A DNA stretch of 34,966 nucleotides from Longimicrobiales bacterium. GTDB lineage: Bacteria > Gemmatimonadota > Gemmatimonadetes > Longimicrobiales > Gaopeijiaceae. The first letter of the stretch is position 1, and every line of letters begins with the position of its first letter. Positions 1,697 through 34,022 of this stretch are shown here, one piece after another. The notes under the pieces are model-generated. The model was not told the DNA's origin, ran no database searches, and saw nothing but the letters and a program-made list of their open reading frames with translations. The position numbers were made by a program, and so were the translations under genes. The DNA is taken from NCBI GenBank assembly GCA_028278645.1, contig JANQDZ010000078.1, positions 1 to 34,966 of the forward strand, given 5' to 3'.

Positions 1697-4117
1697 ATGG
1701 TGAGTCGGCGTCGGTTTATCGGGTATGGCTTCGGATCCCTGGTAGGGCTGCATCTGGACAGCGGGTCCCTCTTCGGGGACACAGGGGTTTGGAGTCCTCT
1801 CCTTCTTGGTCAAGCAGACTCGGAGCTCGAGAGGCGACGGGAGTACTTGGCCCTACTTCAACGAGTGTTGCGACCGAGTGCGCCCCCGGGTGAGGGACGC
1901 GAAGGGCGGATCAACGGCAGCGCCGATTCATGGGAGGAGTGGGTAGAACAATCCGGAGAGCTCCCGCCCGACTTCTCGCAGATGCCGTCTCAACCGCTTC
2001 TTCCTGACCCACTTCAAGACTTGACCGGATTAAAAGGCGGACCAATCGAAACACTTCAGGATTGGGACCGTCAGAAGGCCTGGATCCGGGAGGAATACCA
2101 GAAATGGGTTATCGGGCGGCTACCGCCGGCTCCTGATAATCTCGAGGCAGAGATCATCGAGACGAGACCCCACGGAGAAGCGACAATCCACGAAGTCGTT
2201 CTCCGGTTCGGACCGGAGATGCAAGGCACCCTCCGGATTGATATCCATGTCCCAAAAGGCAGAGGTCCATTCCCCGCATTTGTCACCCCTCAAAACAGAG
2301 GGACCGACTGGGTGAGGATCCCGTTTCGTAGGGGATATGTGGTGTGCATCGTCAAAGCTGCTGATCCGATACGGCACCAAGGAGACGACAGCGATGCTTG
2401 GATCGAACTCTACCCAGATTATGATTTCAGCGGCCTCGCACGGTGGGCCTGGGCGGTCATGCGTGCGGTAGACCACTTGGTCACCCTCCCCTACGTGAAC
2501 TCGGATCAGATAGCCACTGGTGGGAATTCGCGTTACGCGAAATCCACGCTGATCGCCGCTGCATTTGATGAGAGGATTGGAGCTGCCCTCCCGTCGAGGG
2601 GGAATTGCGGATGCGGGATTCCGTGGCGGTTCGCCACGGGCATGTTCGTGAACGAGAGTCTTGAAGAGTTGACACGACTGAATCGGTTCTGGTTCCACCC
2701 ACGCCTCAGGTTCTTCACCGGGCGCGAAGACAGGCTACCGGTTGACCAGAACCTTCTGGTGTCGCTGGTGGCTCCCAGGGGCTTACTCCTCTCCCATGCC
2801 TTTACAGAACACCAGGGTAACCCTTGGGCGATCGAGAGGTCCTACCGGTCAGCGAAGAGGGTTTATGAGTTCTTGGGAGCTGGGGAAAAGCTGGGGCTCA
2901 TCCAGAGGCCGGGAGAGCACACGGTGGCGGGTCCTGTCCTCGAGTTCTATATGGACTTCTGTGACGGGATCTTTGGCCGGGCCCCACTCCGGGAACACCA
3001 TGATCTTATCAACGGTTTTGAGTTCCAGCAGTGGGAGGACGCCCAAGAACGCTCTGCCTCTTCAATCCCTGCGCCACCTTTGCAGAGAAGAAGCTGGCTG
3101 CAGGACCTGGAATCCGGTGTCCCTTGGGCGACCATCAAAACCCGAAGCCGGCGGAGGATCCAATGGCTCCTGGGAGAGACCCCTCCAGCTCTCCGCCGTC
3201 CCTTGGACAACTGGGTGAACTTCCGGTCCGGCACCAGTCGGCGGCGCTCGATCGTGTACCCAAGGACCCTTTTCCAGCGTCCGATCCGAAGCAGGGTGAT
3301 GGGCGTTGCCACCCTCAACTTCGGTGATCGATTACAGGGTGATCTTTATCTAGCGTCCAAAAGAGAAGACGGGTTTCCGAAGTGGTATAGGGACCTGCCG
3401 ACGGTCATCTGGCTCCATCCGTATGCCTATGCGATCGGTTACTCGCGGTACAGCCAGTGGGCGTTCGAGCAGTTGACGGCCAGGAGGTTCGGAGTGATCG
3501 GCCTTGACTTGATCGGGTCTGGGACCCGAGTCGAGGCGATAAAGGGGTTTTACGATCGATACCCCGATCACTCCCTTCTCGGCAGGATGGTCACAGATCT
3601 GAGAGCCCTGATCACCGCCATACACGGCTTACGGGAAGTCAAGAACGATTCCATCTATGTCGTCGGCTCAGGCCTGGGTGCCAAGGCTGCACTCTTCCAC
3701 GCAGCGATGGATGACCGAGTACGGGGAGTAGCGGCGGTGAGCGGGTTCGGATCCCTCCGTGATCCCGACGCGTCCGAGTCTACAGAGGGCCTAAGCCACT
3801 ACACGGATCTACATGGCCTCCTCCCGAGATTGGCACGGTATGAAGACCGGCCTGAGGACATTCCGGTAGACTATGATGAGGTGCTCGCCATGATCGCTCC
3901 ACGGCCAACTCTGGTGATCGCCCCGGAACAAGACCGGTACCATCGGGTCGACTCGGTCCGTGCCTTGGTCGACCGATCCCGGAGCGCCTTTGCATTTCAC
4001 AAGGTCCCGGAAAAGCTGACCCTTGAAACTCCGGAGGGGTTTAACGGGTTTGAGACTGAGCGGGATCGACAACTCAGGGTATTCGATTGGCTTCTGGAAC
4101 AGGAGGGACGAGAGTAG
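1697..4117 (+). CDS. Two-domain alpha/beta hydrolase: CE15-like N-terminal half, degenerate second hydrolase half
   Basis: An 806-aa, probably exported protein. The N-terminus SRRRFIGYGFGSL resembles a Tat signal. Residues about 130-430 look like a glucuronoyl-esterase (CE15)-like hydrolase: TGGNSRYAKS places the likely nucleophile at Ser278 (CE15 enzymes have GCSRNGK), and RPGEHTVAG gives a candidate His408. Residues about 520-806 are a second alpha/beta hydrolase of acetyl-xylan-esterase type, but the nucleophile elbow reads GSGLG (657-661), with glycine where GxSxG needs serine. The segment expected to hold the catalytic histidine reads TPEGFNGFE. This half may be non-catalytic. The likely substrate is an ester on plant or algal polysaccharide, by family only. 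No strong ribosome binding site precedes the ATG; the start was chosen for the twin-arginine leader. The C-terminal 109 residues are duplicated in the upstream pseudogene. Confidence 0.8.
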   Translation: MVSRRRFIGYGFGSLVGLHLDSGSLFGDTGVWSPLLLGQADSELERRREYLALLQRVLRPSAPPGEGREGRINGSADSWEEWVEQSGELPPDFSQMPSQPLLPDPLQDLTGLKGGPIETLQDWDRQKAWIREEYQKWVIGRLPPAPDNLEAEIIETRPHGEATIHEVVLRFGPEMQGTLRIDIHVPKGRGPFPAFVTPQNRGTDWVRIPFRRGYVVCIVKAADPIRHQGDDSDAWIELYPDYDFSGLARWAWAVMRAVDHLVTLPYVNSDQIATGGNSRYAKSTLIAAAFDERIGAALPSRGNCGCGIPWRFATGMFVNESLEELTRLNRFWFHPRLRFFTGREDRLPVDQNLLVSLVAPRGLLLSHAFTEHQGNPWAIERSYRSAKRVYEFLGAGEKLGLIQRPGEHTVAGPVLEFYMDFCDGIFGRAPLREHHDLINGFEFQQWEDAQERSASSIPAPPLQRRSWLQDLESGVPWATIKTRSRRRIQWLLGETPPALRRPLDNWVNFRSGTSRRRSIVYPRTLFQRPIRSRVMGVATLNFGDRLQGDLYLASKREDGFPKWYRDLPTVIWLHPYAYAIGYSRYSQWAFEQLTARRFGVIGLDLIGSGTRVEAIKGFYDRYPDHSLLGRMVTDLRALITAIHGLREVKNDSIYVVGSGLGAKAALFHAAMDDRVRGVAAVSGFGSLRDPDASESTEGLSHYTDLHGLLPRLARYEDRPEDIPVDYDEVLAMIAPRPTLVIAPEQDRYHRVDSVRALVDRSRSAFAFHKVPEKLTLETPEGFNGFETERDRQLRVFDWLLEQEGRE

Positions 4118-6900: not shown

Positions 6901-7791
6901 ATGAGCCGCTCCAATCCACCTGCCCTTTCCCCCCTCCGAACCGTCTTTTTTTTCCTCTTCCTGGGTTCCGGCCTCTGCGGCTGTACGCCTGGTTCCGAGG
7001 TTGAGGGGCGGTCAAAGGGTGCGGGCGACGGCTCAACCGGTGGAGCGTACCAGGGTGAAGAGGGATGGATCGCGCTGTTCAACGGTCAAGATCTCACGGG
7101 TTGGACCCTGAAGATCGCCGGCCAGGAGCCGGGGGTTGATCCGTGGGGAACAGTCCGCGTTGAGGACGGCCTCCTAACCGTCGGATACGAGAACTATGAC
7201 GGGTGGGAAGGCCGCTTCGGACACCTTTTCTACCACGAGCCCTATTCCCACTACCGGCTTCGGGTCGAATACAGGTTCATCGGGGAGCAGGTTTCCGGAG
7301 CGCCCGCCTGGGCGTTCAAAAACAACGGGATCATGTTCCACGCCCAGGCGCCTGAAACGATGCTCCTCGATCAGAGCTTCCCCCTCTCCATCGAAGCTCA
7401 ACTCCTGGGAGGGAACGGGACCGACGACCGACCCACCGGAAACGTCTGCACACCAGGCACGGACATCCTGATCGATGGGCAGATGGCGGAGGCGCATTGC
7501 ATCTCGGCAACGGCACCCACCTTTCACGGCGAGGAGTGGGTCACCTTTGAGATGGTGGTCCGAGGGGGGGAATCCGTGGTGCATGTCATGGGCGGTGACA
7601 CGGTAATGGCCTATAACGCCATGGTCGTAGGCGGAGCCACCGTCGAGGAATTTGGTGAGCTGGCCCAGGCCGAGGGACAACCCCTAACCAGCGGACACAT
7701 AGCCATCCAGAGCGAGAGCCACCCGACCCAGTTCAGGAAGATCCTCCTAAAACCCTTGCCGGCCGGCGGCGAGCATGGAGATGAGAAATGA
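6901..7791 (+). CDS. DUF1080 / 3-keto-glycoside hydrolase-type lipoprotein, 296 aa
   Basis: The first gene of a four-gene operon. The fold is a LamG-like jelly roll; characterised DUF1080 members hydrolyse or eliminate the glycosidic bond of 3-keto-disaccharides and 3-keto-glycosides after C3 oxidation (family knowledge). The hallmark GWIALFNGQDLTGWTLK begins the domain near residue 57, and a C-terminal GHIAIQSESHPTQFRKI closes it. The N-terminus is a signal peptide ending LCGC (Cys28), which predicts an envelope lipoprotein. I chose the ATG at 6901 because GGAG (6891-6894) lies six bases before it and the signal peptide then has normal length. An in-frame ATG at 6868 has no such site. The stop overlaps the next start as ATGA. 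Confidence 0.88.
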   Translation: MSRSNPPALSPLRTVFFFLFLGSGLCGCTPGSEVEGRSKGAGDGSTGGAYQGEEGWIALFNGQDLTGWTLKIAGQEPGVDPWGTVRVEDGLLTVGYENYDGWEGRFGHLFYHEPYSHYRLRVEYRFIGEQVSGAPAWAFKNNGIMFHAQAPETMLLDQSFPLSIEAQLLGGNGTDDRPTGNVCTPGTDILIDGQMAEAHCISATAPTFHGEEWVTFEMVVRGGESVVHVMGGDTVMAYNAMVVGGATVEEFGELAQAEGQPLTSGHIAIQSESHPTQFRKILLKPLPAGGEHGDEK

Positions 7792-8783
7792 CCATAAACC
7801 GAAGGCGATTCCTGGAAACTTCCAGCGGTGTCGTGGCCGCTGCCTCCCTGGGGAGTGTGGCCGGGTTGAGCGCGTGCGCCGAGGCTCCTCCGGACACTTC
7901 CCTCGCCTCCTCATCGGGCGGTCATGGCCAGGAACCGTTCGTCGGGAAACCGGGGATCGGGATTTGCGACTGGAATCTTGGCCCCATGTGCGATCCGGAA
8001 GAGATACAGAACGCGGCTGCCGCCGATCTCACGGGGATCCAGGTCAGCCTTGGCCGAGACCCGGACCAGATCCTTCTCCGAAACCCGGCCCTCCAGGAGC
8101 GATACCAGGAACTGGGGAGGGAGCATGGAGTCAGCTTTCATTCCATCGCTCTGGGCATGTTCAACACACACCCGTTGGCTGATGAGCCTCGCTGCGCCGT
8201 CTGGCTCGTTGATGCGATTGACGCCGCCGTTGCCCTGGGCGCTACCAACGTCCTCATGGCTTTCTTCGGTAACGGCGACCTGAGGTACAGGGATGCTCAG
8301 GGGGAGTTCGTAAATGAGTCCGCAGGTGAGTTCGCATCCTTCCGGCTTGACGAGGAGAAAGTCGGAAGCGTCGTGGACACTCTGAAGCAGGTCGTCCCAA
8401 GGGCGATGGACGCAGGTGTGGCCCTGGGCCTGGAGAACACCATCTCGGGGGCCCAAAACCTGGAGATCATCGAGAGGGTCGGATCGGAATGGCTAAAGGT
8501 CTACTACGACCTGGGGAACTCCACAGGGTACGGGTACGACGTTCCCACCGAAGTTCGGGAGATCGGGAACGACCGCATATGTGAGGTCCATCTGAAGGAC
8601 TGGAGCACCCCCCTTCTGGGGAGTGAAGGGTGCATGGTAGACAATGCTGCCGCCGCCGCTGCTCTAGCCGACATCGGCTACGACAAGTGGTTGGTCCTGG
8701 AGACCAGCGGCCGAGAAGGGCAGTTCATGGAAGACACCCGGGCCAACGTGGCGTGGGCGAAGGAGACTTTCAGAGTCGGATGA
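7788..8783 (+). CDS. Tat-exported sugar phosphate isomerase/epimerase-like TIM barrel, 331 aa
   Basis: An AP-endonuclease-2/xylose-isomerase-like barrel. The four expected metal ligands are visible: Glu216 (GLENT), Asp241 (YYDLGN), His268 (EVHLKDW) and Glu305 (LVLETS), so it is probably catalytic with a divalent metal. In 3-keto-glycoside pathways such proteins act as lyases or epimerases on the keto sugar (family knowledge; the exact role here is inferred). The N-terminus NRRRFLE is a Tat motif, followed by a hydrophobic stretch ending LSAC (Cys30), so it may be a Tat lipoprotein. That is unusual for a barrel whose relatives are often cytoplasmic, but it fits its exported partners. It is translationally coupled to the DUF1080 gene through ATGA. 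Confidence 0.87.
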   Translation: MTINRRRFLETSSGVVAAASLGSVAGLSACAEAPPDTSLASSSGGHGQEPFVGKPGIGICDWNLGPMCDPEEIQNAAAADLTGIQVSLGRDPDQILLRNPALQERYQELGREHGVSFHSIALGMFNTHPLADEPRCAVWLVDAIDAAVALGATNVLMAFFGNGDLRYRDAQGEFVNESAGEFASFRLDEEKVGSVVDTLKQVVPRAMDAGVALGLENTISGAQNLEIIERVGSEWLKVYYDLGNSTGYGYDVPTEVREIGNDRICEVHLKDWSTPLLGSEGCMVDNAAAAAALADIGYDKWLVLETSGREGQFMEDTRANVAWAKETFRVG

Positions 8784-8811
8784 TCGCACTGAACGGGTCG
8801 GGAGGCTGACC

Positions 8812-10377
8812 TTGAAGCTCATCCGGAAAGCCGGGAAGAGGTTGATGTCGGGCCTGAAGGCCTGGCTTCGCCCATCCCGGCTCCCATTCGTCTGGGGCTT
8901 GGCCGCCGGAGTCCTTTTTGTCCTGGCTGTCCGGACAGGAAACGCTGTAACGTCCACCGATTCGTTCTGCGAGTCCTGTCACGTTCACCCCCAAGCAACC
9001 ACCTCCTGGAAACAATCGACCCATTATGCGACCCAGAGTGGCATGGTGGTTCACTGCGTCGAATGCCACCTCCCCCCTGGCGGGTTCCCCTACGCGGTTC
9101 AGAAGGCCCGACTAGGGATACGGGATCTTTGGGGAAAGCTCACAAAGGACCCCGAGTCGTTCGACTGGGAGGCACGTTCTGACCTGGCTCACGCCCGGAC
9201 GTTCACCTTCCGGGAGTCGTGCCTGGATTGCCATCCGAATCTGTTCCCTCTCCAACTCTCCGACGAAGGGGAGGAGGCTCACTTCCATTATGAGCGACAG
9301 GCCGATGAGGTCCGTTGCTTGAACTGCCATCTCCACGTGGGCCACTTCGATCCCAACGCGACCAAAGAGATCAACTTCGGCATCGTCGCATCGACGGAAG
9401 AGGAGGTTTTCAACGAACCCGCCCAGGTCGAGGGCTTCGTCGACTACACAGAACAGATCCCCGGCACCTCGGTGAGCTTCGACATGATCGCGGTTCCCGG
9501 TGGCAGTTTCCGAATGGGCAGTCCGGAGACGGAAGGGTACCGAAAGGAGGACGAAGGACCTCAGCACCAAGTCACGGTGAGCCCCTTTTGGATGGCCAGG
9601 GTGGAGACCACCTGGGACGAGTTCGAAGCATGGTATCGGGCTACCCGTGCAGAGGGTAGAACCGACACGAGGAGTTTGGCAGGAGAAGCGGCCGTCGACG
9701 CCATCACCGGCGCCACCCCGCCTTACGTCCCGCCGGACCAGGGATGGGGTAAGGGTGACCGTCCGGCCATAACCATGACCCACCACGCTGCGGCTCAGTA
9801 CGCGCGGTGGCTCTCCCAGCAGACTGGGAAGAGGTACCGTCTACCGACGGAAGCAGAGTGGGAATACGCGGCCCGGGGAGGGACCGTCACTCCCTACTTC
9901 TTCGAGGGAGAACCCTCCGACTATGCCTCGGATCGGTTTTTTCACAATTGGTTTGGTCGCAACACAATTGTGTTAGACAGCTTCTCGGTTCATGCCGGAA
10001 ACAGTGGCGCCCGGACCCAGATCCCCTCTGAGTCCAAACCGAACCCGTTCGGGCTCGTGAACATGTTGGGGAACGTTAAGGAGTTCACCTCCGACTGGTA
10101 TGCTGAGGATACCTACCGAGGCCGGGTTGGCGCAGGACCAGTTTTGGATCCCCTGGGTCCGTCCAACGGAACGGAGCACGTGGTCCGCGGCGGGTCGTTC
10201 CGCAGCGGTCCGGCAGATTTGCGGGCCGCGGCAAGAGATCACACCCGAACGGGTGCATGTTTGGTGACTGACCCCCAGATTCCCAAGAGCATCTGGTGGT
10301 ATTCGGACTGCAACGACATCGGATTCCGCGTGGTCAGGGAATTCGAGAACTCGGAACAACAAGGAGCCGAAGGATGA
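8812..10377 (+). CDS. NapC/NirT-type tetraheme cytochrome c fused to an FGE/SUMF1-fold domain, 521 aa
   Basis: A rare-looking fusion. Residues about 25-42 form one membrane anchor. The domain behind it has four CxxCH haem sites: C53ESCH, C82VECH, C137LDCH and C169LNCH. This architecture matches the NapC/NirT/NrfH family, which takes electrons from quinol and passes them to periplasmic partners. Residues about 222-510 are a formylglycine-generating-enzyme/EgtB/PvdO-type domain (FDMIAVPGGSFRMGS, YRLPTEAEWEYAARGG, NMLGNVKEFTSDW, HVVRGGSF). The C-terminal GFRVV lacks the cysteines that bind copper in true FGE, so sulfatase maturation is unlikely. The start is TTG with GGGAGG six bases upstream. 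It lies 28 bases after the isomerase gene and overlaps the oxidoreductase start by ATGA. A redox or binding module for the operon is my inference. Confidence 0.9.
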   Translation: MKLIRKAGKRLMSGLKAWLRPSRLPFVWGLAAGVLFVLAVRTGNAVTSTDSFCESCHVHPQATTSWKQSTHYATQSGMVVHCVECHLPPGGFPYAVQKARLGIRDLWGKLTKDPESFDWEARSDLAHARTFTFRESCLDCHPNLFPLQLSDEGEEAHFHYERQADEVRCLNCHLHVGHFDPNATKEINFGIVASTEEEVFNEPAQVEGFVDYTEQIPGTSVSFDMIAVPGGSFRMGSPETEGYRKEDEGPQHQVTVSPFWMARVETTWDEFEAWYRATRAEGRTDTRSLAGEAAVDAITGATPPYVPPDQGWGKGDRPAITMTHHAAAQYARWLSQQTGKRYRLPTEAEWEYAARGGTVTPYFFEGEPSDYASDRFFHNWFGRNTIVLDSFSVHAGNSGARTQIPSESKPNPFGLVNMLGNVKEFTSDWYAEDTYRGRVGAGPVLDPLGPSNGTEHVVRGGSFRSGPADLRAAARDHTRTGACLVTDPQIPKSIWWYSDCNDIGFRVVREFENSEQQGAEG

Positions 10378-11714
10378 GCGAGGAGAAGGCGGGACCGAGC
10401 AGGCGCGACTTCATCGAAACCCTCGGCGTGATGGGTGCGGCAGGAGCGGTAGGCGCCGTGGTGGCCGGATGTGGCCCCGGCCAACAAGCGCTATACCCGG
10501 ACTACGCATACCCACCTCTGATGGAACAGGCGCCGGATGGCCCCGTGCTGAGAGCCGGCGTAATCGGGTGCGGAGGCCGGGGAACCGGCGCGGCCCAGCA
10601 GTTCCTTGATTCCGGCCCGAACCTGGAGATCGTCGCCTTGGCCGACTACTTCCAGGATCGCATAGACAACTGCCGGGCTACGCTCCTGGAGCAAAAAGGG
10701 GTGGAGATACCCGACGAGCACTGCTTCAATGGGTTCGACTCCTACCATCAACTCCTGGAAGTCGACCTGGACGTGGTCCTCATGGCCACCCCTCCCTACT
10801 TCCGCCCGGAGCACTTCGAGGCCTGCGTGGAGGCGAGGAAACACGTCTTCATGGAAAAACCGGTGGCCGTGGACCCGGTGGGGTGTCGGTCCGTCATGGC
10901 CTCGGCTCGGCAGGCTGACGGGGCCGGTCTTTGTGTTATCACCGGGACCCAGAGGCGTCACCAGGCAGACTATCTGGATGTTTTCCGTCAGGTGGCCGAG
11001 GGAGCCATCGGGGACATCGTCGGGGCGAACGTCTACTGGAACGGGGTTGTGCCTTGGTACAGGGACCGCCAGCCCGGATGGACGGATGTGGAATACATGC
11101 TGCGAGACTGGGTGAACTGGACGTGGCTCTCCGGCGATCACATTGTCGAACAACACGTGCACAACATCGACGTTGCCAACTGGTACCTGGGCGACGCCCA
11201 TCCCCAGAAGGCCGTGGGGTTCGGGGGCCGGTGGCGCCGGCCCACGGGTGACCAGTACGACTTCTTCAGCATCGACTACACATACGACGACGAGATCCAC
11301 GTCCACTCCATGTGTCGTCAGATTGCCGGGTGCGCCAACAACGTTTCCGAGTTCATCCGGGGCACTGCAGGCTACACCAACGCCGTGAACACGTTATGGA
11401 GCCCGGACGGGACCGAGCGGTTCACGTATCCCTACGGGGTGGACGAAGAGGGGAATCGGATCGGACCCCAACCCTACCTCCAGGAGCACATCGACCTCGT
11501 GACCGCCATCCGGTCCGGAGAGCAGGTGAACGAGGCTGCACGAACCGCCGAGGCGACCCTGACAGCCATCATGGGCCGAATCTCCTGTTACACGGGGCAG
11601 GAGGTCACCTGGGATCAGATGATGGAATCGGACCTGAAGCTTGGACCCGAAAACCTGAACTTTGGCGAGTCGGACCTCATCCGCGCTGTGGTGCCGGTGC
11701 CTGGAACGGACTGA
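10374..11714 (+). CDS. Tat-exported Gfo/Idh/MocA family oxidoreductase, 446 aa
   Basis: An NAD(P)-type sugar dehydrogenase fold. SRRDFIE with a hydrophobic stretch ending VAGC (Cys33) indicates Tat export of a folded, cofactor-loaded protein, probably lipid-anchored. The dinucleotide site is AGVIGCGGRGTG (61-72). The conserved EKP is at 161-163, and the active-site segment reads EQHVHNIDVANW. Family members of this exported type keep their nicotinamide cofactor bound and oxidise or reduce sugars at C3 (established for glycoside 3-oxidation systems). In this operon it is the best candidate for making or reducing the 3-keto sugar. The start at 10374 was chosen because it gives the Tat leader and overlaps the previous stop (ATGA). 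It is the last gene before the terminator. Confidence 0.9.
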   Translation: MSEEKAGPSRRDFIETLGVMGAAGAVGAVVAGCGPGQQALYPDYAYPPLMEQAPDGPVLRAGVIGCGGRGTGAAQQFLDSGPNLEIVALADYFQDRIDNCRATLLEQKGVEIPDEHCFNGFDSYHQLLEVDLDVVLMATPPYFRPEHFEACVEARKHVFMEKPVAVDPVGCRSVMASARQADGAGLCVITGTQRRHQADYLDVFRQVAEGAIGDIVGANVYWNGVVPWYRDRQPGWTDVEYMLRDWVNWTWLSGDHIVEQHVHNIDVANWYLGDAHPQKAVGFGGRWRRPTGDQYDFFSIDYTYDDEIHVHSMCRQIAGCANNVSEFIRGTAGYTNAVNTLWSPDGTERFTYPYGVDEEGNRIGPQPYLQEHIDLVTAIRSGEQVNEAARTAEATLTAIMGRISCYTGQEVTWDQMMESDLKLGPENLNFGESDLIRAVVPVPGTD

Positions 11715-11766: not shown

Positions 11767-11796
11767 GGCCGACCCTGAAACGGGTCGGCCTTTTTT
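11767..11796 (+). terminator. Intrinsic terminator of the 3-keto-glycoside operon
   Basis: A perfect nine-base-pair stem (GGCCGACCC at 11767-11775, GGGTCGGCC at 11782-11790) with a six-base loop, followed directly by six T. It lies 53 bases after the oxidoreductase stop. This is the clearest terminator in the window. Confidence 0.92.
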
Positions 11797-21823: not shown

Positions 21824-22153
21824 ATGGCGGAGCGCCGGTATCTAGGAGAGTTCGAACACTTCGTCCTCGCCACCGCCCTCCGACTCGGGCGTGGCTACGG
21901 AACCGAATTGATCCGCGAGCTGGAAACGTGCACGGGCCGGCAGGTCCAAGGGGGCGCCCTCTACGCGACACTCGACCGGCTTGAGTCGAAGGGCTACTTG
22001 ATCAGCGAGATGGGCCCGCCCGATCCGCAACGGGGGGGCCGTCCCAAACGATTCGTTCGGGTGACCCCTGAGGGGTTGCGTGCCCTTGCGGATCAGCGTG
22101 AGGCCTTCCTCCGAGTATGGAATGGGATGGAAGCTAGGTTCGAGGACGCATGA
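21824..22153 (+). CDS. PadR family transcriptional regulator, module 1, 109 aa
   Basis: A winged-helix repressor of the short PadR-s1 type. The HTH region ALRLGRGYGTELIRELE and the wing GALYATLDRLESKGYLIS are typical, and the C-terminus is a single dimerisation helix. It overlaps the downstream permease start by ATGA (22150-22153), so the two are translationally coupled. It probably represses its own operon through the CTA/TAG palindromes just upstream. The inducing signal is unknown; PadR proteins often respond to small hydrophobic compounds. No other candidate identity. Confidence 0.9.
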   Translation: MAERRYLGEFEHFVLATALRLGRGYGTELIRELETCTGRQVQGGALYATLDRLESKGYLISEMGPPDPQRGGRPKRFVRVTPEGLRALADQREAFLRVWNGMEARFEDA

Positions 22154-24804
22154 GATCCGCACCCCCTTCGATCCTTCGGCGGCTCCTCGCCTGGCTGCTG
22201 ACACCTGGTCCCGCGCGGGACGGCCTGGTCGGGGATCTGGATGAGCTGTATGTGCAACGGCTTCGAGCCGGCCGAGCCACCGCCACCCTCTGGTATCTGC
22301 GGCAGGTGGCATCCACGGTGATTCACTATTCACCGCGTCGACTGCTGGCCTGGTGGAGACGACCTGACGGGACCGGAAAGACGGAGGAGCTCAGAACGAG
22401 TTTGGGATCCGCCCTGAGGGCGTTAAAGCGGAGGCCCGGATTCGCGGCCGTGGTGGTTCTCACGCTGGCGCTGGGAATCGGGGCGAACACTGCGGTCTTT
22501 AGCGTGGTGCGGTCGGTAGTCCTGCAACCCCTTCCGTTCCCGGAGGCCGACCGTTTGGCCGTTCTCCTACTCCGGATGGAGAGAGCTGGGTATCCGGAAG
22601 GGCACCCCTCAATACCCGAATACGTAACCTACCGCGATCAGCTGCGCTCGTGGGAGCAGCTCGCGGCGTATCGCATTTTCGAGGCCACGGTCACGGGAAG
22701 CGGCGGCTACGCTGAGCGGGTGTATGTCGCCGTCACCACCCGGAACCTCTTTGCGGCGCTCGGAGCAGAGGCGGTCCACGGGCGGACGTTTACCTCAGAT
22801 GAAGATCAGCCTGGATCGGATGCTGTGGCCCTGCTCAGCTACGGCTATTGGCAAAGCCGCTACGGGGCAGATCCCGGTGTGGTCGGCAAAGACGTCGTCC
22901 TGGAGGGTCGGACGCGCACGATCGTCGGTGTGATGCCGGCGGGGTTCGGCTTTCCAGACACCGACGTCCGCTTCTGGGTGCCGCTGGCCATCTCGTCGCA
23001 ACATCTCGCCGCGCGCGGCGTTCACCAGTATTCTGTGGTGGGACGGCTCCAACCTGGCGTCACCCTCGCTTCCGCGGAGACAGAGCTCGCTGCCGTCACG
23101 CAGCGCGTAACTGCCGACCCGGCCTTCAATTTTCACGACTGGCACCCGGCTTTCCTTCGCCCCTTGCGGGCTCAGATTGTGGGGGACGTTTCGCAGGCGC
23201 TCTGGATGATTTTCGCCGCCGTGGGCCTCGTGCTGGTGATCGCGTGTGCTAACGTCGCGAACCTCCTGTTGGTACGTTCCGAGGACCGGGCCCGGGAGAT
23301 GGCAGTGCGCAGTGCGCTCGGCGCGGGACGGGGCCGCCTTCTATTGCAGCTTCTCACCGAAAGTCTCGTCATGACGTCGGCAGGAGGGTTGGCCGGGGTA
23401 ATACTCGCTTGGATCGGCGTCGATGTGTTGCACGCGATGGCCCCCCCGGGGCTACCGCGCCTGGAGGAGATCTCGGTCGATGGCATCGTGCTCGCCCTCA
23501 CGGTGTTCATCACGCTGAGCGCCGCCCTGCTGTTCGGCGTCCTCCCGGCCCTTCAGGTCGGGCGTACCGACGTTCAGCGGAGGCTCCGCGAGGAAGGTGG
23601 GAGCACCACGGCGGGTAGGGCGCGAACCCGCCTACGCCATACTCTCGTGGTCTCCGAGACCGCCCTCGCGGTCGTGCTGTTGATCTCGGCGGGGCTACTA
23701 CTTCAAAGCTATCGGCGCGTTTCGAGCGTCGATCCCGGATACAGTACGGAGCAGGTGCTGACGGCGACCCTCGACCTGCCCGATGAACGTTACGCGGAGT
23801 GGGAGGACCCCGTGGCGTTCTACGAGTCGCTTCTGGCTCGCGTGAGGGGGCTTCCTGGTGTTACCGCTGCAGGAGCCGTCCGCCATGCGCCGCTCTCGGG
23901 CCCGGTCGGGCCGAGCAGCGTCGAAGTGGAAGGATGGGTCGAACTGCCCGATGCCTCTCCGCCCGTCGCCGTAATACAGGTCGCCACTCCCGGATACTTC
24001 GAGGCGATGGGGATCCCCGTGCTCGAGGGCCGGGCTCTGGACGCTGGCGACCGGGATGGGTCCACTCCGGTCGCCGTCGTAACGGAGTCGTTCGCGCGGA
24101 GCTACTGGCCGGGAAAGAGTGTGCTCGGCGGCCGGCTCCGATTGGACGACCCTGACCTCCCCTTCGCCAAGATCGTCGGCGTGGTGCCGGACATGCGCCA
24201 AAACCGCTTGGACCGTCCACCCGAACACGGGACAATGTTTCTGCCGCATGCGCAGGCGCCGGGGCGATCGATGACGCTTGCCGTCCGGTCGTCCGTCGAA
24301 CCCACCTCGCTGGTGAGCGCAATCCAAACCGAGGTCGCCGCCTTGGACCCGAGCATTCCAGTTTACGAAGTGCGCACCATGGAGGAAGCCCTCGCTGACA
24401 CCACAGCCTCGGAGCGCTTCACCGCGCTCCTCCAACTCCTCTTCGCGCTCGTGGCGCTCTCGCTTTCCGCGGTGGGGCTCTACGGGGTGCTTGCATTCAC
24501 GGTGGCGCGCCGCACGAACGAGATCGGGATTCGCATCGCCCTGGGTGCAGGGCGCCGCCGCGTGAGGCGCATGGTCATGCGACAGGGGATGGGCCTCGTC
24601 GCCCTGGCGATCGCTGTTGGATTAGTGGGAGCCCTCGCGGTTGGTCGGTCGCTCGAACGCCTCCTGTACCGCACCTCGGCTCTGGACCCGCTCACCTATT
24701 GCGTGGTCGTCGCCACTCTCCTCCTGGTCGCAATCCTAGCCTCCTGGATTCCGGCACGCCGCGCGAGCTCGGCAGACCCGATTCGTGCCTTGCGGGCCGA
24801 GTAA
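22150..24804 (+). CDS. ADOP-type MacB/FtsX-like permease, module 1, 884 aa
   Basis: An inner-membrane protein with two fused FtsX/MacB permease halves and no ATPase domain. Such ADOP proteins (acidobacterial duplicated orphan permeases) occur in PadR-linked families and may act in export or as mechanotransmission devices. A cytoplasmic prefix (about 1-80, GLVGDLDELYVQRL) precedes the first membrane segment at about 97-120 (LALGIGANTAVFSVV). A large periplasmic MacB-type domain follows, then three more segments. The pattern repeats from about residue 490 and ends ASWIPARRASSADPIRAL. The two copies of the EMAVRSALGAGRGR / EIGIRIALGAGRRR motif mark the two halves. It is convergent with module 2, with 43 bases between the stops. 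Confidence 0.9.
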   Translation: MRSAPPSILRRLLAWLLTPGPARDGLVGDLDELYVQRLRAGRATATLWYLRQVASTVIHYSPRRLLAWWRRPDGTGKTEELRTSLGSALRALKRRPGFAAVVVLTLALGIGANTAVFSVVRSVVLQPLPFPEADRLAVLLLRMERAGYPEGHPSIPEYVTYRDQLRSWEQLAAYRIFEATVTGSGGYAERVYVAVTTRNLFAALGAEAVHGRTFTSDEDQPGSDAVALLSYGYWQSRYGADPGVVGKDVVLEGRTRTIVGVMPAGFGFPDTDVRFWVPLAISSQHLAARGVHQYSVVGRLQPGVTLASAETELAAVTQRVTADPAFNFHDWHPAFLRPLRAQIVGDVSQALWMIFAAVGLVLVIACANVANLLLVRSEDRAREMAVRSALGAGRGRLLLQLLTESLVMTSAGGLAGVILAWIGVDVLHAMAPPGLPRLEEISVDGIVLALTVFITLSAALLFGVLPALQVGRTDVQRRLREEGGSTTAGRARTRLRHTLVVSETALAVVLLISAGLLLQSYRRVSSVDPGYSTEQVLTATLDLPDERYAEWEDPVAFYESLLARVRGLPGVTAAGAVRHAPLSGPVGPSSVEVEGWVELPDASPPVAVIQVATPGYFEAMGIPVLEGRALDAGDRDGSTPVAVVTESFARSYWPGKSVLGGRLRLDDPDLPFAKIVGVVPDMRQNRLDRPPEHGTMFLPHAQAPGRSMTLAVRSSVEPTSLVSAIQTEVAALDPSIPVYEVRTMEEALADTTASERFTALLQLLFALVALSLSAVGLYGVLAFTVARRTNEIGIRIALGAGRRRVRRMVMRQGMGLVALAIAVGLVGALAVGRSLERLLYRTSALDPLTYCVVVATLLLVAILASWIPARRASSADPIRALRAE

Positions 24805-24847: not shown

Positions 24848-27601
24848 CTACTCGCCCCGGAGCGCCTCGATTGGGTCGATAGCCGCCGCTTTGCGCGCAG
24901 GAAACGAGGTGGCCACGGCCGCCACGGCCACCAGCAGGAGTGAGACTCCGACGTACGTGATCGGGTCCGTCCGGGATACGTCGAAGAGGAGAGCGTCCAT
25001 CAGTCGGGTGAGCCCGTACGCCCCGCTCAGGCCAAGGCCGATACCGATCGTTGTCAGTGCGCCGCCCTGGCGTAGAACCATACGGTGGACCGTCGATGCA
25101 TCGGCTCCGAGAGCCATTCTGATGCCGATCTCGCCCCTGCGAAGGTTCACCACGTAAGCGATCACGCCGTAGATGCCAACACCACCGAGCAGCAGTGCCA
25201 CGAGCGCCGATATTCCCATAAGAACCATCGTGAATGCAGTCTGAGCTCGCGCGTCCGCCACGACGTCACCCATTGTACGGATGTGTGCCAACGCCAGGGA
25301 GCCGTCCATCGCCCCGACTTCGGCGCGAATAAGTCCGACGAGGTTCACTCCTTGCCCTGGTGCTCGCACGAGAACCGTCATCGAGTGGCTGGAGATCCCA
25401 CGCTCATCCTGGCTGGCCATGGCTTGGTAGATGAGAGGATCTGCTGGCCTGGAGACTGAGTTCGCGGGTACGTTGCCCACCACCCCAACGATGGTGTGCC
25501 ACCCTGACCTAACAGGGTTCGAGCTCGGATAGACACGCCGCCCTATTGGGTCCTCTCCTGGAAAGAACGTCTCGGCGAGAGCCGCACTGACCACCACCGA
25601 TCCGGTCCGTTCTTCGTGATCGGCTCGCTCCAGAACTCGTCCCCTAAGGAGGGGTATCCCCATCGCCTCGAAGTACCCTGGGCTGGCTCTCCTGATGGCC
25701 ACGACCTCGGGCAAGATCCCGGGCTTGAGTACCCTGCCCTCCACCTGTAACGGGTTGCCTGCACACCACCCGTCCAGTGGTATACAAGTGATGACCCCGA
25801 CGCTCTCGACGCCGGGGAGGGTTCCCAGTCGCTCGATGAGCTCTTGGTAGAAGGCGGCAGCGTCGGCGTTTGCCGGATAGGTGCCCTGAGGCAACCCAGT
25901 CTGAAAGGTCACCACGTCGTCGCGGGCGGTGAAGCCGGGATCCACGTTCTTGAGACGCCAGAAGCTCCTCAGCATCAGCCCGGATCCGACCAGCAGCACC
26001 AGCGTGAGGGCCACCTGGGTCGTGACCAGCGTGTTCCGGACGAGGAGTCGTCCATGTCCTGCGGTCGAGCCGCGCCCGACGTCGGTGAGGGTCTTCACCA
26101 CATGCGTTCCCCGCACGAGCGGAATGGCAGTGAAGAGAGCGCTCACGACGCTTGAAACTCCCCCAGTGAACGCTAGGACCTGACCGTTGATGGAAACCTC
26201 GCCCAACCGCGGAAGGTCCTCGGGGCCGAACGCAACGAGGGTTCGGACGCCCAAGTAGGCAAGGCCCAGGCCGAGGCCTGCGCCGGCTAACGTCAAGAGG
26301 CTGCTTTCGGTCAAGAAGAAACGGACGAGATCGGCGCGTTCTGCTCCCAGCGCCCTGCGCACCGCGACCTCATGTCGACGGCTCTCCGCCCGCACCAGGA
26401 GTAGGTTCGCAACGTTTGCGCATGCGATCAGAAGGACGAAGCCCACGGTCCCCAATAGGATCCAGAGCGTCTGGCGGACGTTGCCGACGACGTGCTCCTT
26501 GAGCGGTAGTACAATGGCGGAAAGCCTCGCGTCGTCCAGGATCTGGCGCGCCTGTTCGATCTGCCCTGGAAAGGCCTCGGGAAGCAGGGACAACAGGCCG
26601 TCCAACTCTCTCTGGGCATCCTTGGCGCTGACTCCCGGCTTCAGCCTCGCGATGCCGAGGGTCGTGAAGCTTCCAAGTGTTTGAGTCGCAGGGTCGATGA
26701 CGCTCGGGATCCACAGCTTCGTGTTCGCGCTGCTCCGGGCTAGCGCCCTCATCGCCTCATTGGGAAACGTGAAGGACGCGGGCATGATCCCCACAACTTC
26801 CAGGGGAAAGCCATTGAGCTGGATCGTGCGACCCAAAACCGCGGGATCTCCTCCAAAGTGGGACGTCCAAAGGCCAAAGCTGAGGACCACGACGCCCGTG
26901 CCGTCCGTGTATCGATCGTTCTCCGTGAACCAACGGCCCGCGAACGGCTGCACGCCTAGCACTGTGCCGAGCGTGTATGTGGCTCTGGTGGCCGTGACCC
27001 GTGTCGGATCGCCGTGGCCAGTCAGGGTCGCCTCCAGATCGCTCCACAAGGCGACCTCGGAAAGGGTTTGGCTTCGCCCGCGGTAATGAACGTAGAGACC
27101 GGGGGTCATCTGCAGACGGGTGTCCGGATTGAGGCCCGGAGCCGCATGGTCCAACCAGACCAGTTCCTCTGAGTCTGGATAGGGAAGCGCACTCAGAACG
27201 ACCGAGTTCACCACACTGAAGATGGCCGTATTGGCCCCAATGCCGAGGCTCAACGTGAGCACGGTAGCCAGCGTGAAGCCAGGGTTTTTCGCGAGGCGGC
27301 CAAGGGCATGACGGATCTCCTGGGACCATCCCGTCATGAGCCGGCTCCAGATTCCCTCCCGGCGCCGATTCTGTCGCCCCTCTGTGGAAACAACACCACG
27401 GATACGCTGGTCTGCCGCGCCGGCCAACAAACCCAACAGCTCCCGGCCTGTGAACCAAGCCAACCCCAGAGGACTCAACTGGGACCAGGCGTCCGCTGCG
27501 CGTGCCCCGAACATCTCCACCATGTCCCCACCGTAAGTCCGCCGGAAGCTGGCCGGGTACAGCTTCAGTAGACGCTCGTAAAGCCATGTCACGAATGTCA
27601 C
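24848..27601 (-). CDS. ADOP-type MacB/FtsX-like permease, module 2, 917 aa
   Basis: The same architecture as its convergent neighbour, but with a different prefix: YERLLKLYPASFRRTYGGDM (about 7-26) is the classical 'LYP..FR..YG..M' permease prefix, absent from modules 1 and 3. The first membrane segment carries LSLGIGANTAIFSVV, and the repeated half-marker is EVAVRRALGAER / EIGIRMALGADA. It ends AIDPIEALRGE. The start is GTG, supported by GGAGG six bases upstream (complement of 27608-27612). The gene lies 21 bases after its PadR gene on the same strand. Substrate unknown; the partner ATPase would be encoded elsewhere, if there is one. Confidence 0.9.
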   Translation of the reverse strand: MTFVTWLYERLLKLYPASFRRTYGGDMVEMFGARAADAWSQLSPLGLAWFTGRELLGLLAGAADQRIRGVVSTEGRQNRRREGIWSRLMTGWSQEIRHALGRLAKNPGFTLATVLTLSLGIGANTAIFSVVNSVVLSALPYPDSEELVWLDHAAPGLNPDTRLQMTPGLYVHYRGRSQTLSEVALWSDLEATLTGHGDPTRVTATRATYTLGTVLGVQPFAGRWFTENDRYTDGTGVVVLSFGLWTSHFGGDPAVLGRTIQLNGFPLEVVGIMPASFTFPNEAMRALARSSANTKLWIPSVIDPATQTLGSFTTLGIARLKPGVSAKDAQRELDGLLSLLPEAFPGQIEQARQILDDARLSAIVLPLKEHVVGNVRQTLWILLGTVGFVLLIACANVANLLLVRAESRRHEVAVRRALGAERADLVRFFLTESSLLTLAGAGLGLGLAYLGVRTLVAFGPEDLPRLGEVSINGQVLAFTGGVSSVVSALFTAIPLVRGTHVVKTLTDVGRGSTAGHGRLLVRNTLVTTQVALTLVLLVGSGLMLRSFWRLKNVDPGFTARDDVVTFQTGLPQGTYPANADAAAFYQELIERLGTLPGVESVGVITCIPLDGWCAGNPLQVEGRVLKPGILPEVVAIRRASPGYFEAMGIPLLRGRVLERADHEERTGSVVVSAALAETFFPGEDPIGRRVYPSSNPVRSGWHTIVGVVGNVPANSVSRPADPLIYQAMASQDERGISSHSMTVLVRAPGQGVNLVGLIRAEVGAMDGSLALAHIRTMGDVVADARAQTAFTMVLMGISALVALLLGGVGIYGVIAYVVNLRRGEIGIRMALGADASTVHRMVLRQGGALTTIGIGLGLSGAYGLTRLMDALLFDVSRTDPITYVGVSLLLVAVAAVATSFPARKAAAIDPIEALRGE

Positions 27602-30985: not shown

Positions 30986-31309
30986 ATGCCAACGCTCAAT
31001 CTCACATACACCACCGGCATAGTTCTGCAGGCAATCGCCGAGGGATACCGCTACGGCTTCGACATTATGGAGGCGTCAGGTTTGGCCGACGGCACGGTGT
31101 ACCCGGCTCTGCGACGTCTCGAAGCGGCTGGATACCTCATCTCGGCGTGGGAGGAACCCTCTGAAGCAACAGCCGAGAAACGTCCCAAACGACGCTACTA
31201 CGAGTTGACCCCGGGTGGTCAGGAATTGTTGAGGGAGGCCCGAGCGAAGTTCACCCGGCTCGAGTGGTCAGTCCCGTCGAAAGACGGGCCCGAAGTGGAG
31301 CGTGCCTGA
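30986..31309 (+). CDS. PadR family transcriptional regulator, module 3, 107 aa
   Basis: A winged-helix PadR repressor. TGIVLQAIAEGYRYGFDIME opens the domain, and DGTVYPALRRLEAAGYLISA is the recognition and wing part. KRRYYELTPGGQELL is the typical wing strand pair. The C-terminal helix is short. Its stop overlaps the GTG start of the permease by eight bases. The inverted-repeat operator lies directly upstream. The three PadR proteins of the window differ clearly from each other, so they are not recent duplicates. Confidence 0.9.
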   Translation: MPTLNLTYTTGIVLQAIAEGYRYGFDIMEASGLADGTVYPALRRLEAAGYLISAWEEPSEATAEKRPKRRYYELTPGGQELLREARAKFTRLEWSVPSKDGPEVERA

Positions 31310-34022
31310 CACAATGCCAGGTACACCAGACACTCCCCGCTTCGCCAATCTCGCCTTGCGGGTGTGCGCGCGGTTGGTGAAACCCGCACAGCGTGGCCGC
31401 TGGCATGGGGAGTGGGCTGCGGAGTTGGCCCACTGGTGGGGAAAGCTGGAACCGGAGCAAAAGCGGGGGGCCTCCGGAGTTGCGCGACAGGGCTACCGAT
31501 CGCTGCTAGCGGCCATGGATGCGGTTCACGTCCGTCGCCTGGGTCCTGCGCTTGAAGGCCGAAACGGCGTCGGCAAACTCGGCAAACAGCGCTTCAAAGG
31601 GGGACGTGGCAGAATGTTGCGAGACCTGTTCCATGACGTGCGTTTTGCCGTCCGCACACTGAGGCGACAATCGGGCTTCGCCGTGGTCGCAGGGCTCACC
31701 ATGGGGCTGGGTATAGCGGTCACCACCACGATCTTCAGCCTGGTAAACGGCATCCTACTCAAGCCTCTTCCCTTTCCCGACCCGGAACGACTGGTCTCGG
31801 TGTGGCCCGACCGATGGTTCTCTCCCTCTCTCTTCGACTACGTGGAACGTGAGACGGATTCGTACGAGGCAATTGCCGGCGTGACCTGGCGAGGGCACGT
31901 GGATATCGGACCCGGTGGGGCGACGCGGTTGTGGGGCCCCATGACCACAGCGGGTTTCTTCAACGTGCTCGACCCTAACCCGATACTCGGCCGTACCTTC
32001 ATCCAGGGTGAGGATACGCCGGGAAACGACCACGTTGTGGTCATCTCCCATGGACTTTGGCAACGACGCTTCGGTGGAGACCGGGACGTGATTGGGATGA
32101 GCATCGACCTGCGCGGGGCGTCGCGAACGGTAATTGGGGTCATGCGTCCTGGATTCGACTTCCTAAGGGCCGGGACCGACCTCGTGCTACCCACTGTGAG
32201 GGATCCGGAGTCAGTCCGGTATCACGACTCCAGCTATAAAGTCATCGCCCGGTTGAAGCCTGGGGTGTCACGTACACAGGCAAACGCTGAGCTCCAACTC
32301 CTTGCTACCAGGATTCGTGATGAGAACAATCTCCCGGCAGATTGGGGGATGGATGCTGATGTCGTTCCTATGCGCGATTATTTGGTCGGGGATGTTCGCC
32401 CCACGTTACTGCTACTCTTCGGTGCCGTCGGCGTGCTCTTGCTCATAACCGCCGCGAATTTGGCGAATCTACTCCTTGCCCGGGCCCTATCCCGACAGCG
32501 GGAGGTCTTGATGCGCCTGGCTCTCGGGGCCAGTCGCGGCCGGTTGGTGCGCCAGATGCTCACCGAGTGCACAGTGTTAGGTCTGATCGGTGTGATCCTG
32601 GGCGTTGCCGGCGCTGCCGTTGGACTCGAGGGTGTGATGAGGCTCCTCCCGCCAGATACCCCTCGATTGGCTGAAGCGCAAGTGGACGTTCCAGTCCTCC
32701 TTTTCTCCTTGACGCTCGCTTTAGCGGTTGGATGGGTGGTCGGCTTGGTGCCGGCCCTGCGGGCGCACCGCACCGGTATCGGAGAGGGGTTGGCCGGCGG
32801 CGGAAGGACTTCCACTGGAGGGCGGACGTATCTCAGGGCGGCCATTGTCGCCGGAGAGGTCGCTCTGGCGGTGGCGTTGCTGGCTGGGTCCGGCGTGCTG
32901 ATCAAGAGTTTCTGGCGTGTTCATCGCGTCGATCCGGGCTTTCAGGCCGAGGGCCTGCTGACATTCGAGATGATTGCGCCGCCTGGGAGGCTCGGTTCGT
33001 TAACCGAGGCAACCGACTACTTCACGGAAGTGTCCCAGCGCTTGGGGCAGCTCCCGGGAGTGGAAACTGTATCCCGCACGACACGGAACCCTATGGCCCC
33101 CGATGGCAATGTGATCAATGTGCGGGCGGAGGGTCGGCCCAACCAGTCGGACGAAGAAGGGCTACTGGCAAGATGGCTGCGATCAACACCCAGCTACTTC
33201 ACGACCCTGGGGGTCCCATTACTCAAGGGCCGGTTGCTGGCGGATACGGACGTGGCTGGCGGCGACCCGGTTGCCGTGATTTCAGCCCAGGCAGCTAAAC
33301 GCCTCTTTCCGGGAGAGGACCCGTTGGGGAAGCGGATCCGCACCGGGTTTGAGAGCTTTCCGGTAGAGGTGGTCGGCGTGGTGGGCGATGTGAAACTGTT
33401 GAGCCTGGAACAAGATGCTCCGCTGATCGTCTACAGGCCCTATGTTCAGACGACCTCCGTCAGCGAACGGTTTGGCGTTAGCGCGCAACGCGCATTCCTG
33501 TTACGGACCTCCGTCGATCCGGGCAGCCTGATCGGGGCAGTTCGCCGTGAGTTGCGCACTTTCGACTCCAGGGCACTGGTCGAAGGTCTGCAGTCAATGG
33601 AAGAAACGATCTCCCAATCCACTACCGGCCGGCGAGTCATCTTGATATTGCTGTCGCTCTTCGCTTCTACCGCCGTGGCATTGTCTTGCGTCGGCATTTT
33701 TGGTGTGGCCGTGTACTCTGTTCAGCAGCGGCGCAGGGAAATCAGCATTCGGGTGGCCCTGGGGGCGTCCGCGCCTTCCATCGTCCGGTCAGTTCTCGCC
33801 GCGGGGCTAAGGATCGGCCTCTTTGGAGCAGTGGCGGGAGTAGGCTTGGCCGTCGCGCTATCGCGAGCTATAGATCGGTTCGCTTTCGAAGTGAGCGGTT
33901 CCGATCCCGCCGTTCTGGCAGGTGCGGCCGCTCTCGCCACCGTCGTGGCGCTAGTGGCTTCACTGCTACCCGCTTTGCGTGCAATCCGGTCGGATCCCAT
34001 GGAGGCGCTGGCGGCTGAGTAG
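31302..34022 (+). CDS. ADOP-type MacB/FtsX-like permease, module 3, 906 aa
   Basis: A third duplicated orphan permease. The cytoplasmic prefix (LALRVCARLVKPAQRGRWHG, then EWAAELAHWW) is of yet another type, and about 100 residues separate it from the permease body, which starts LRDLFHDVRFAVRTLRRQSG. The first membrane segment is LTMGLGIAVTTTIFSLVNG. The half-markers are EVLMRLALGASRGR and EISIRVALGASAPS. It ends AIRSDPMEALAAE. The GTG start inside the PadR gene is preferred over the internal ATG before LRDLF because it includes the prefix and couples translation. Function as for modules 1 and 2: unknown export or signalling role in the inner membrane. Confidence 0.9.
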   Translation: MPDTMPGTPDTPRFANLALRVCARLVKPAQRGRWHGEWAAELAHWWGKLEPEQKRGASGVARQGYRSLLAAMDAVHVRRLGPALEGRNGVGKLGKQRFKGGRGRMLRDLFHDVRFAVRTLRRQSGFAVVAGLTMGLGIAVTTTIFSLVNGILLKPLPFPDPERLVSVWPDRWFSPSLFDYVERETDSYEAIAGVTWRGHVDIGPGGATRLWGPMTTAGFFNVLDPNPILGRTFIQGEDTPGNDHVVVISHGLWQRRFGGDRDVIGMSIDLRGASRTVIGVMRPGFDFLRAGTDLVLPTVRDPESVRYHDSSYKVIARLKPGVSRTQANAELQLLATRIRDENNLPADWGMDADVVPMRDYLVGDVRPTLLLLFGAVGVLLLITAANLANLLLARALSRQREVLMRLALGASRGRLVRQMLTECTVLGLIGVILGVAGAAVGLEGVMRLLPPDTPRLAEAQVDVPVLLFSLTLALAVGWVVGLVPALRAHRTGIGEGLAGGGRTSTGGRTYLRAAIVAGEVALAVALLAGSGVLIKSFWRVHRVDPGFQAEGLLTFEMIAPPGRLGSLTEATDYFTEVSQRLGQLPGVETVSRTTRNPMAPDGNVINVRAEGRPNQSDEEGLLARWLRSTPSYFTTLGVPLLKGRLLADTDVAGGDPVAVISAQAAKRLFPGEDPLGKRIRTGFESFPVEVVGVVGDVKLLSLEQDAPLIVYRPYVQTTSVSERFGVSAQRAFLLRTSVDPGSLIGAVRRELRTFDSRALVEGLQSMEETISQSTTGRRVILILLSLFASTAVALSCVGIFGVAVYSVQQRRREISIRVALGASAPSIVRSVLAAGLRIGLFGAVAGVGLAVALSRAIDRFAFEVSGSDPAVLAGAAALATVVALVASLLPALRAIRSDPMEALAAE

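Follow-up and report, generated by a model that had tools for sequence, protein, structure and literature searches.

Why should a multihaem cytochrome be encoded within a set of genes annotated for the breakdown of 3-keto-glycosides? The question arises from a 34,966-nucleotide stretch of a Longimicrobiales bacterium (Gemmatimonadota; contig JANQDZ010000078.1), hereafter the window, which an initial annotation had described as holding a four-gene, envelope-tethered operon of this kind with a built-in cytochrome. All four genes lie on the forward strand. Gene 1 (6901..7791, alternative start 6868) encodes a lipoprotein with the DUF1080/3-keto-disaccharide hydrolase fold (PF06439, 111 bits against a gathering score of 26.8), and gene 2 (7788..8783) a Tat-exported lipoprotein with a xylose-isomerase-like TIM barrel (PF01261, 89 against 31.1 bits), for which a sequence search of the PDB returned no matches. 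Gene 3 (8812..10377), here called CytFGE, fuses a NapC/NrfH-type tetrahaem cytochrome (PF03264 NapC/NirT, 100 against 24.1 bits) to an FGE-fold domain (PF03781, 144 against 23.3 bits). Gene 4 (10374..11714) encodes a Tat-exported Gfo/Idh/MocA oxidoreductase lipoprotein (PF01408, 56.6 against 24 bits). These Pfam scores, all above the gathering thresholds, bear out the four family assignments made at the outset, and the described layout is found at the positions claimed: ATGA overlaps at 7788 and 10374, a 28-base gap (8784-8811) with a Shine-Dalgarno-like GGGAGG (8800..8805) ahead of gene 3, which starts with TTG, and a strong intrinsic terminator (11767..11796; a 9-bp GC-rich stem followed by TTTTTT, fold z -4.9). 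Judged from their sequences, all four proteins would reside at the envelope, as was also proposed: lipobox cysteines were read by eye in genes 1 (LCGC), 2 (LSAC) and 4 (VAGC), as were Tat motifs in genes 2 (RRRFLETS) and 4, and gene 3 has a predicted membrane helix.

Other genes in the window include one upstream of the operon (1697-4117), whose product combines an N-terminal RRRF motif with a glucuronoyl esterase domain of the fungal type (PF22244), one for an aldehyde:ferredoxin oxidoreductase (PF02730/PF01314; 16744-18603), and three MacB_PCD/FtsX permease genes that are alike in length and lie in a span of about 12 kb (22150-24804, 24848-27601 and 31302-34022).

The cytochrome part of gene 3 has a single N-terminal hydrophobic helix, predicted at about residues 26-43 (8887..8940; helix 25-45 in the model), and four CxxCH haem motifs: C53ESCH57 (8968..8982), C82-H86 (9055..9069), C137-H141 (9220..9234) and C169-H173 (9316..9330). 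Every one of the 52 aligned fusions has the four motifs, further histidines at 59, 71, 157 and 178, and the residues K98 and D105. In an alignment with NrfH (2j7a), K98 and D105, downstream of the second motif, correspond to Lys82 and Asp89, whose role in the NrfH quinol site has been described (PMC4683180), and H59, just downstream of the first motif, falls at the position of Met49. The quinol-site residues are thus retained and the haem-1 ligand position is changed, the axial methionine of NrfH being replaced by histidine in all 52 fusions. The cytochrome is therefore a genuine member of the NapC type, as first annotated, and its quinol-site residues are present. It misses the cut-off of the NCBIfam NrfH equivalog model (62.6 against 134.2 bits). 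In the AlphaFold model of the fusion, built without haems, the cytochrome is poorly predicted (mean pLDDT 63.7), and neither an interface nor a haem path was therefore taken from it.

The second part of the fusion (residues 224-478; 9481..10245) has the FGE/PvdO fold, as both its Pfam score and a Foldseek search indicate. None of the 52 aligned fusions has a cysteine at the copper-binding columns (GGSxxC...C), and FGE activity was rejected for this domain on that ground. The signature TDPQIPKSIWWYSDC (10267..10311) follows; its region was read from an alignment of 26 fusions, and residue invariance from the alignment of 52.

Gene 4 belongs to the Gfo/Idh/MocA superfamily by its PF01408 match, a Rossmann GxGxxG and an EKP motif (161-163), with a best fold-search Z of 23.1; further features are RR at residues 10-11, the lipobox cysteine C33, H256 and H263. 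Its fold neighbours are mixed, comprising inositol, levoglucosan and sulfoquinovoside enzymes, YjhC, the aldose-aldose oxidoreductase 5a02 and NAD-dependent sulfoquinovosidases (8qc2, Z 22.7), and the reaction of gene 4 is accordingly not fixed by its fold. The C-terminal half of its structural model is of mixed confidence. Membership of the BT_2158 glycoside 3-dehydrogenase family was rejected, the protein scoring 19 bits with NCBIfam NF058561 against a cut-off of 750, and it did not match the GH109 C-terminal domain PF21252 at E 0.001.

Given these assignments, the genomic neighbourhood shows which parts of the operon belong together. Relatives of the fusion were found in 28 loci, one genome per species, from Gemmatimonadota, KSB1, Calditrichota, Ignavibacteriota and Bacteroidota, and with few exceptions a homologue of gene 4 comes next. 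This recurrence in five phyla rejects chance or a local oddity as the explanation. The nearest fusions to CytFGE are 72-79% identical and come from Gemmatimonadota. A wider set comprised 73 fusion loci. In 62 of these the fusion is immediately followed by a same-strand Gfo gene, the ends of the two domains being a median of 68 nt apart, and in one of the 11 others (L010) the Gfo is cut off by the contig edge. Carriers include Labilibaculum, Marinifilum, Carboxylicivirga and Mangrovibacterium.

Co-occurrence across genomes follows the same pattern. In Bacteroidales (198 genomes), the fusion and the Gfo are each present in 23 genomes and together in 22 (Fisher p=6e-27). The KSB1-type phylum to which genome G253 belongs has 82 genomes, of which 21 hold both, two the fusion only and one the Gfo only (p=3e-16); of the two fusion-only genomes, G500 has an adjacent Gfo cut by a contig edge, and in G527 the fusion itself is so cut. 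The couple is rare in Gemmatimonadota, where the fusion model matched in 7 of 249 genomes and a Gfo orthologue was found in four, each adjoining a fusion or, in G198, a fusion remnant. Of 197 genomes in the class that includes the Melioribacteraceae genome, one has the fusion, together with its Gfo. The Mantel correlation between fusion and Gfo is 0.64, not near 1. One genome (G304) has seven Gfo copies for a single fusion, which suggests a shared redox partner.

Several loci depart from the common arrangement. Three Gemmatimonadota genomes of family f10 have a fusion without a gene 4-type Gfo beside it, and in two of the three the fusion is followed by another Tat-exported protein of about 315 residues with no Pfam match (L063:8181-9128 and L064:5334-6281). 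The fusion of G198 appears to have decayed, with only its C-terminal FGE part remaining (L066:7784-9767) and the Gfo intact with its lipobox. At L030:10001-11446 the fusion match breaks off about 27 residues early, without a Gfo behind it, and an opposite-strand transporter ORF overlaps; this is possibly a deletion junction. A Gfo paralogue of G304 (L112:6370-7461) adjoins a different multihaem cytochrome, with nine CxxCH motifs, on the opposite strand.

The other two operon genes are looser companions. A TIM-barrel gene lies within 3 kb of 29 of the 77 cytochrome loci, and a DUF1080 gene within that distance of only six, so a strict four-gene operon was rejected. This corrects the initial annotation: the cytochrome goes with the Gfo and not with a 3-keto/DUF1080 operon. 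The conserved unit is a two-protein couple, the CytFGE fusion followed by a Tat-exported Gfo, and not a 3-keto operon with an added cytochrome. The combination of DUF1080, TIM and Gfo does recur as originally supposed, together with the couple in Calditrichaceae (L015), Melioribacteraceae (L016) and the KSB1-type phylum (L148). Further loci carry SusC/SusD with a hybrid two-component sensor/regulator, sulfatases and GH2, and sulfatase genes lie near L011 and L025, the latter with a GH109 neighbour that matches PF21252. From these neighbouring genes, a predicted role of the couple in carbohydrate use is well supported; the presence of DUF1080 at few loci argues that C3 chemistry is not general.

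A cytochrome-free relative of the couple also exists. Two KSB1 loci (L144, L145) have DUF1080, TIM, FGE and Gfo genes in the order of the window and no cytochrome, and at another locus (L143) these families are also present, but FGE and Gfo are separated by a gap. Among more distant Gemmatimonadota Gfo genes, an FGE gene adjoins every one at the loci examined, bar one at a contig edge. These free-standing FGE proteins share the signature of the fusion in the form DPQxPK/RxxWW. In the Gfo tree, fusion-linked sequences and their paralogues are separated from those linked to a free-standing FGE by a branch of length 0.78 with 100/100 support. Cytochrome-clade Gfo genes that have no fusion as neighbour come from genomes with a fusion elsewhere, except in G426; a further genome with the Gfo alone, G472, came to light afterwards and is not part of the tree. 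Absence of the cytochrome from most orthologous operons, an outcome that would have told against its membership, was therefore not what we observed, since a cytochrome-clade Gfo nearly always adjoins a fusion or shares its genome.

The two clades also differ in their predicted anchoring. A Tat motif is present in 57 of 57 Gfo proteins near a fusion. In 54 of them the lipobox region holds a cysteine (the other three were unread), against 0 of 10 proteins that have only a free-standing FGE partner; L066 was left out of these ten because its fusion is decayed. One further high-scoring Gfo (L141) has no lipobox cysteine, and no fusion was found in its genome. As this is a difference between clades, the cases are not independent events. 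The existence of a cytochrome-free Gfo and FGE couple implies that the cytochrome is not indispensable to the Gfo chemistry.

How might the couple work? We regard it as an even call that CytFGE and the Gfo together make up a single periplasmic sugar dehydrogenase, tethered to the membrane and feeding electrons into the quinone pool. The Gfo would fold with NAD(P), be exported by Tat and then become lipid-anchored, and it would oxidise a hydroxyl of a sugar or glycoside to the keto form, likely at C3 where DUF1080 and TIM genes are present. The FGE-fold domain would dock the oxidoreductase, and the tetrahaem cytochrome would relay electrons from it to the (mena)quinone pool; because the cytochrome would drain electrons in this way, the Gfo would need no second sugar as acceptor for its turnover. 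The TIM and DUF1080 proteins, where present, would process the keto product. This reading draws on the adjacency and co-occurrence of the two genes, the one fusion for seven Gfo copies in G304, the retained quinol-site residues and histidines, the lipobox of the cytochrome-linked Gfo proteins and the sugar-related neighbours. Electron transfer from NADH to menaquinone is downhill, and the reverse is not. Against a sugar dehydrogenase stand the cytochrome-free couple, the small number of loci with DUF1080, the Mantel correlation of 0.64 and the three family-f10 genomes that have no such Gfo beside the fusion. In addition, no flavin or other converter of hydride to single electrons is encoded in the operon, which leaves the presumed hydride-to-haem step without an explanation, and NapC/NrfH proteins normally take electrons from the quinol pool and do not feed them into it.

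This last property speaks for a reading with electrons flowing in reverse, from menaquinol through the cytochrome to a Gfo/FGE pair acting as periplasmic reductase of a keto-sugar or other acceptor in anaerobic respiration. Relatives of the cytochrome work from menaquinol, the quinol-site residues are kept, and several hosts are, to judge by their names, Bacteroidota of marine or sediment origin. We nonetheless consider it fairly unlikely, since the four-gene set holds no known cofactor site of a terminal reductase, and since Gfo/Idh/MocA enzymes use NAD(P), and an uphill step of about 0.25 V separates menaquinol from the reduction of NAD. A redox-neutral Gfo, cleaving glycosides with NAD in the manner of SqgA or GH109 and relying on the cytochrome only for rescue from the wrong cofactor state, is unlikely: sulfoquinovosidases and YjhC are among the closest folds by Z and the couple can exist without a cytochrome, but ordinary dehydrogenases score at similar Z, the GH109 C-terminal family is not matched, and a rescue role predicts less than the near-obligate link of cytochrome-clade Gfo to the fusion. 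Very unlikely is a role for the fusion in maturation, or as another oxidase of the FGE type, in which a quinone-linked cytochrome feeds a site that modifies exported proteins, for despite the PF03781 domain with its FGE/PvdO fold and the sulfatases near two loci, the copper-binding cysteine pair is missing throughout the fusions and it is a Gfo that adjoins them, not sulfatases.

Known systems resemble the proposed sugar dehydrogenase in part. LacABC is a flavin (GMC) enzyme with a cytochrome subunit; none of the four operon genes matched a GMC family in Pfam. In Caulobacter this lactose 3-dehydrogenase is accompanied by a DUF1080 hydrolase (PMC9007349). Both have a DUF1080 hydrolase close at hand, and the window may share the oxidation of glycosides at C3 by a membrane-bound enzyme in the periplasm; the difference is that the window has a Gfo/Idh/MocA oxidoreductase and a NapC/NrfH-type cytochrome bearing an FGE-fold domain. 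The 3-keto-disaccharide pathway BT2156-BT2160 of Bacteroides presumably includes a TIM-barrel protein, and we know of no cytochrome or FGE partner in that cluster. It comprises the DUF1080 hydrolase BT2157 and the periplasmic glycoside 3-dehydrogenase BT2158 (PMC9007349, PMC11300592). The window shares the hydrolase family, but gene 4 is far outside the BT_2158 family.

With NrfH and NapC, CytFGE has in common PF03264, the four CxxCH motifs, a single membrane anchor and the equivalents of Lys82 and Asp89, but it differs in the invariant histidine at the Met49 position, in its FGE-fold fusion and in having no nitrite or nitrate reductase partner. FGE/SUMF1, PvdO and GldK/PorK share its second fold and PF03781, whereas CytFGE is without the copper cysteines, carries the DPQxPKSxWW signature and has a Gfo/Idh/MocA protein as genetic partner. 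Glucose-fructose oxidoreductase is likewise a Tat-exported, periplasmic Gfo/Idh/MocA enzyme, and in glucose-fructose and aldose-aldose oxidoreductases a bound NADP is recycled by a second sugar; in the couple of the window, the cytochrome is the presumed acceptor instead. No literature joining NapC/NirT, FGE/SUMF1 and Gfo/Idh/MocA was found in a search largely of non-subscription papers, and the couple looks like an undescribed arrangement.

More tentatively, Gfo with an FGE-fold partner may be a general, undescribed periplasmic redox couple, of which one lineage would have gained a quinone-reactive tetrahaem cytochrome and a lipid-anchored Gfo. The result would be a flavin-free respiratory sugar dehydrogenase in which the electrons of bound NAD(P)H reach the quinone pool, and one cytochrome could serve several sugar-specific Gfo paralogues. 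With the couple, a subfamily of FGE-fold proteins in which the FGE active site is missing acquires a candidate function. The alternative, oxidation-based routes of glycan breakdown leave open the way in which exported, NAD-dependent Gfo/Idh/MocA enzymes regenerate their cofactor in the periplasm, and the couple suggests a concrete route for it, a quinone-linked tetrahaem partner, that is testable in named strains.
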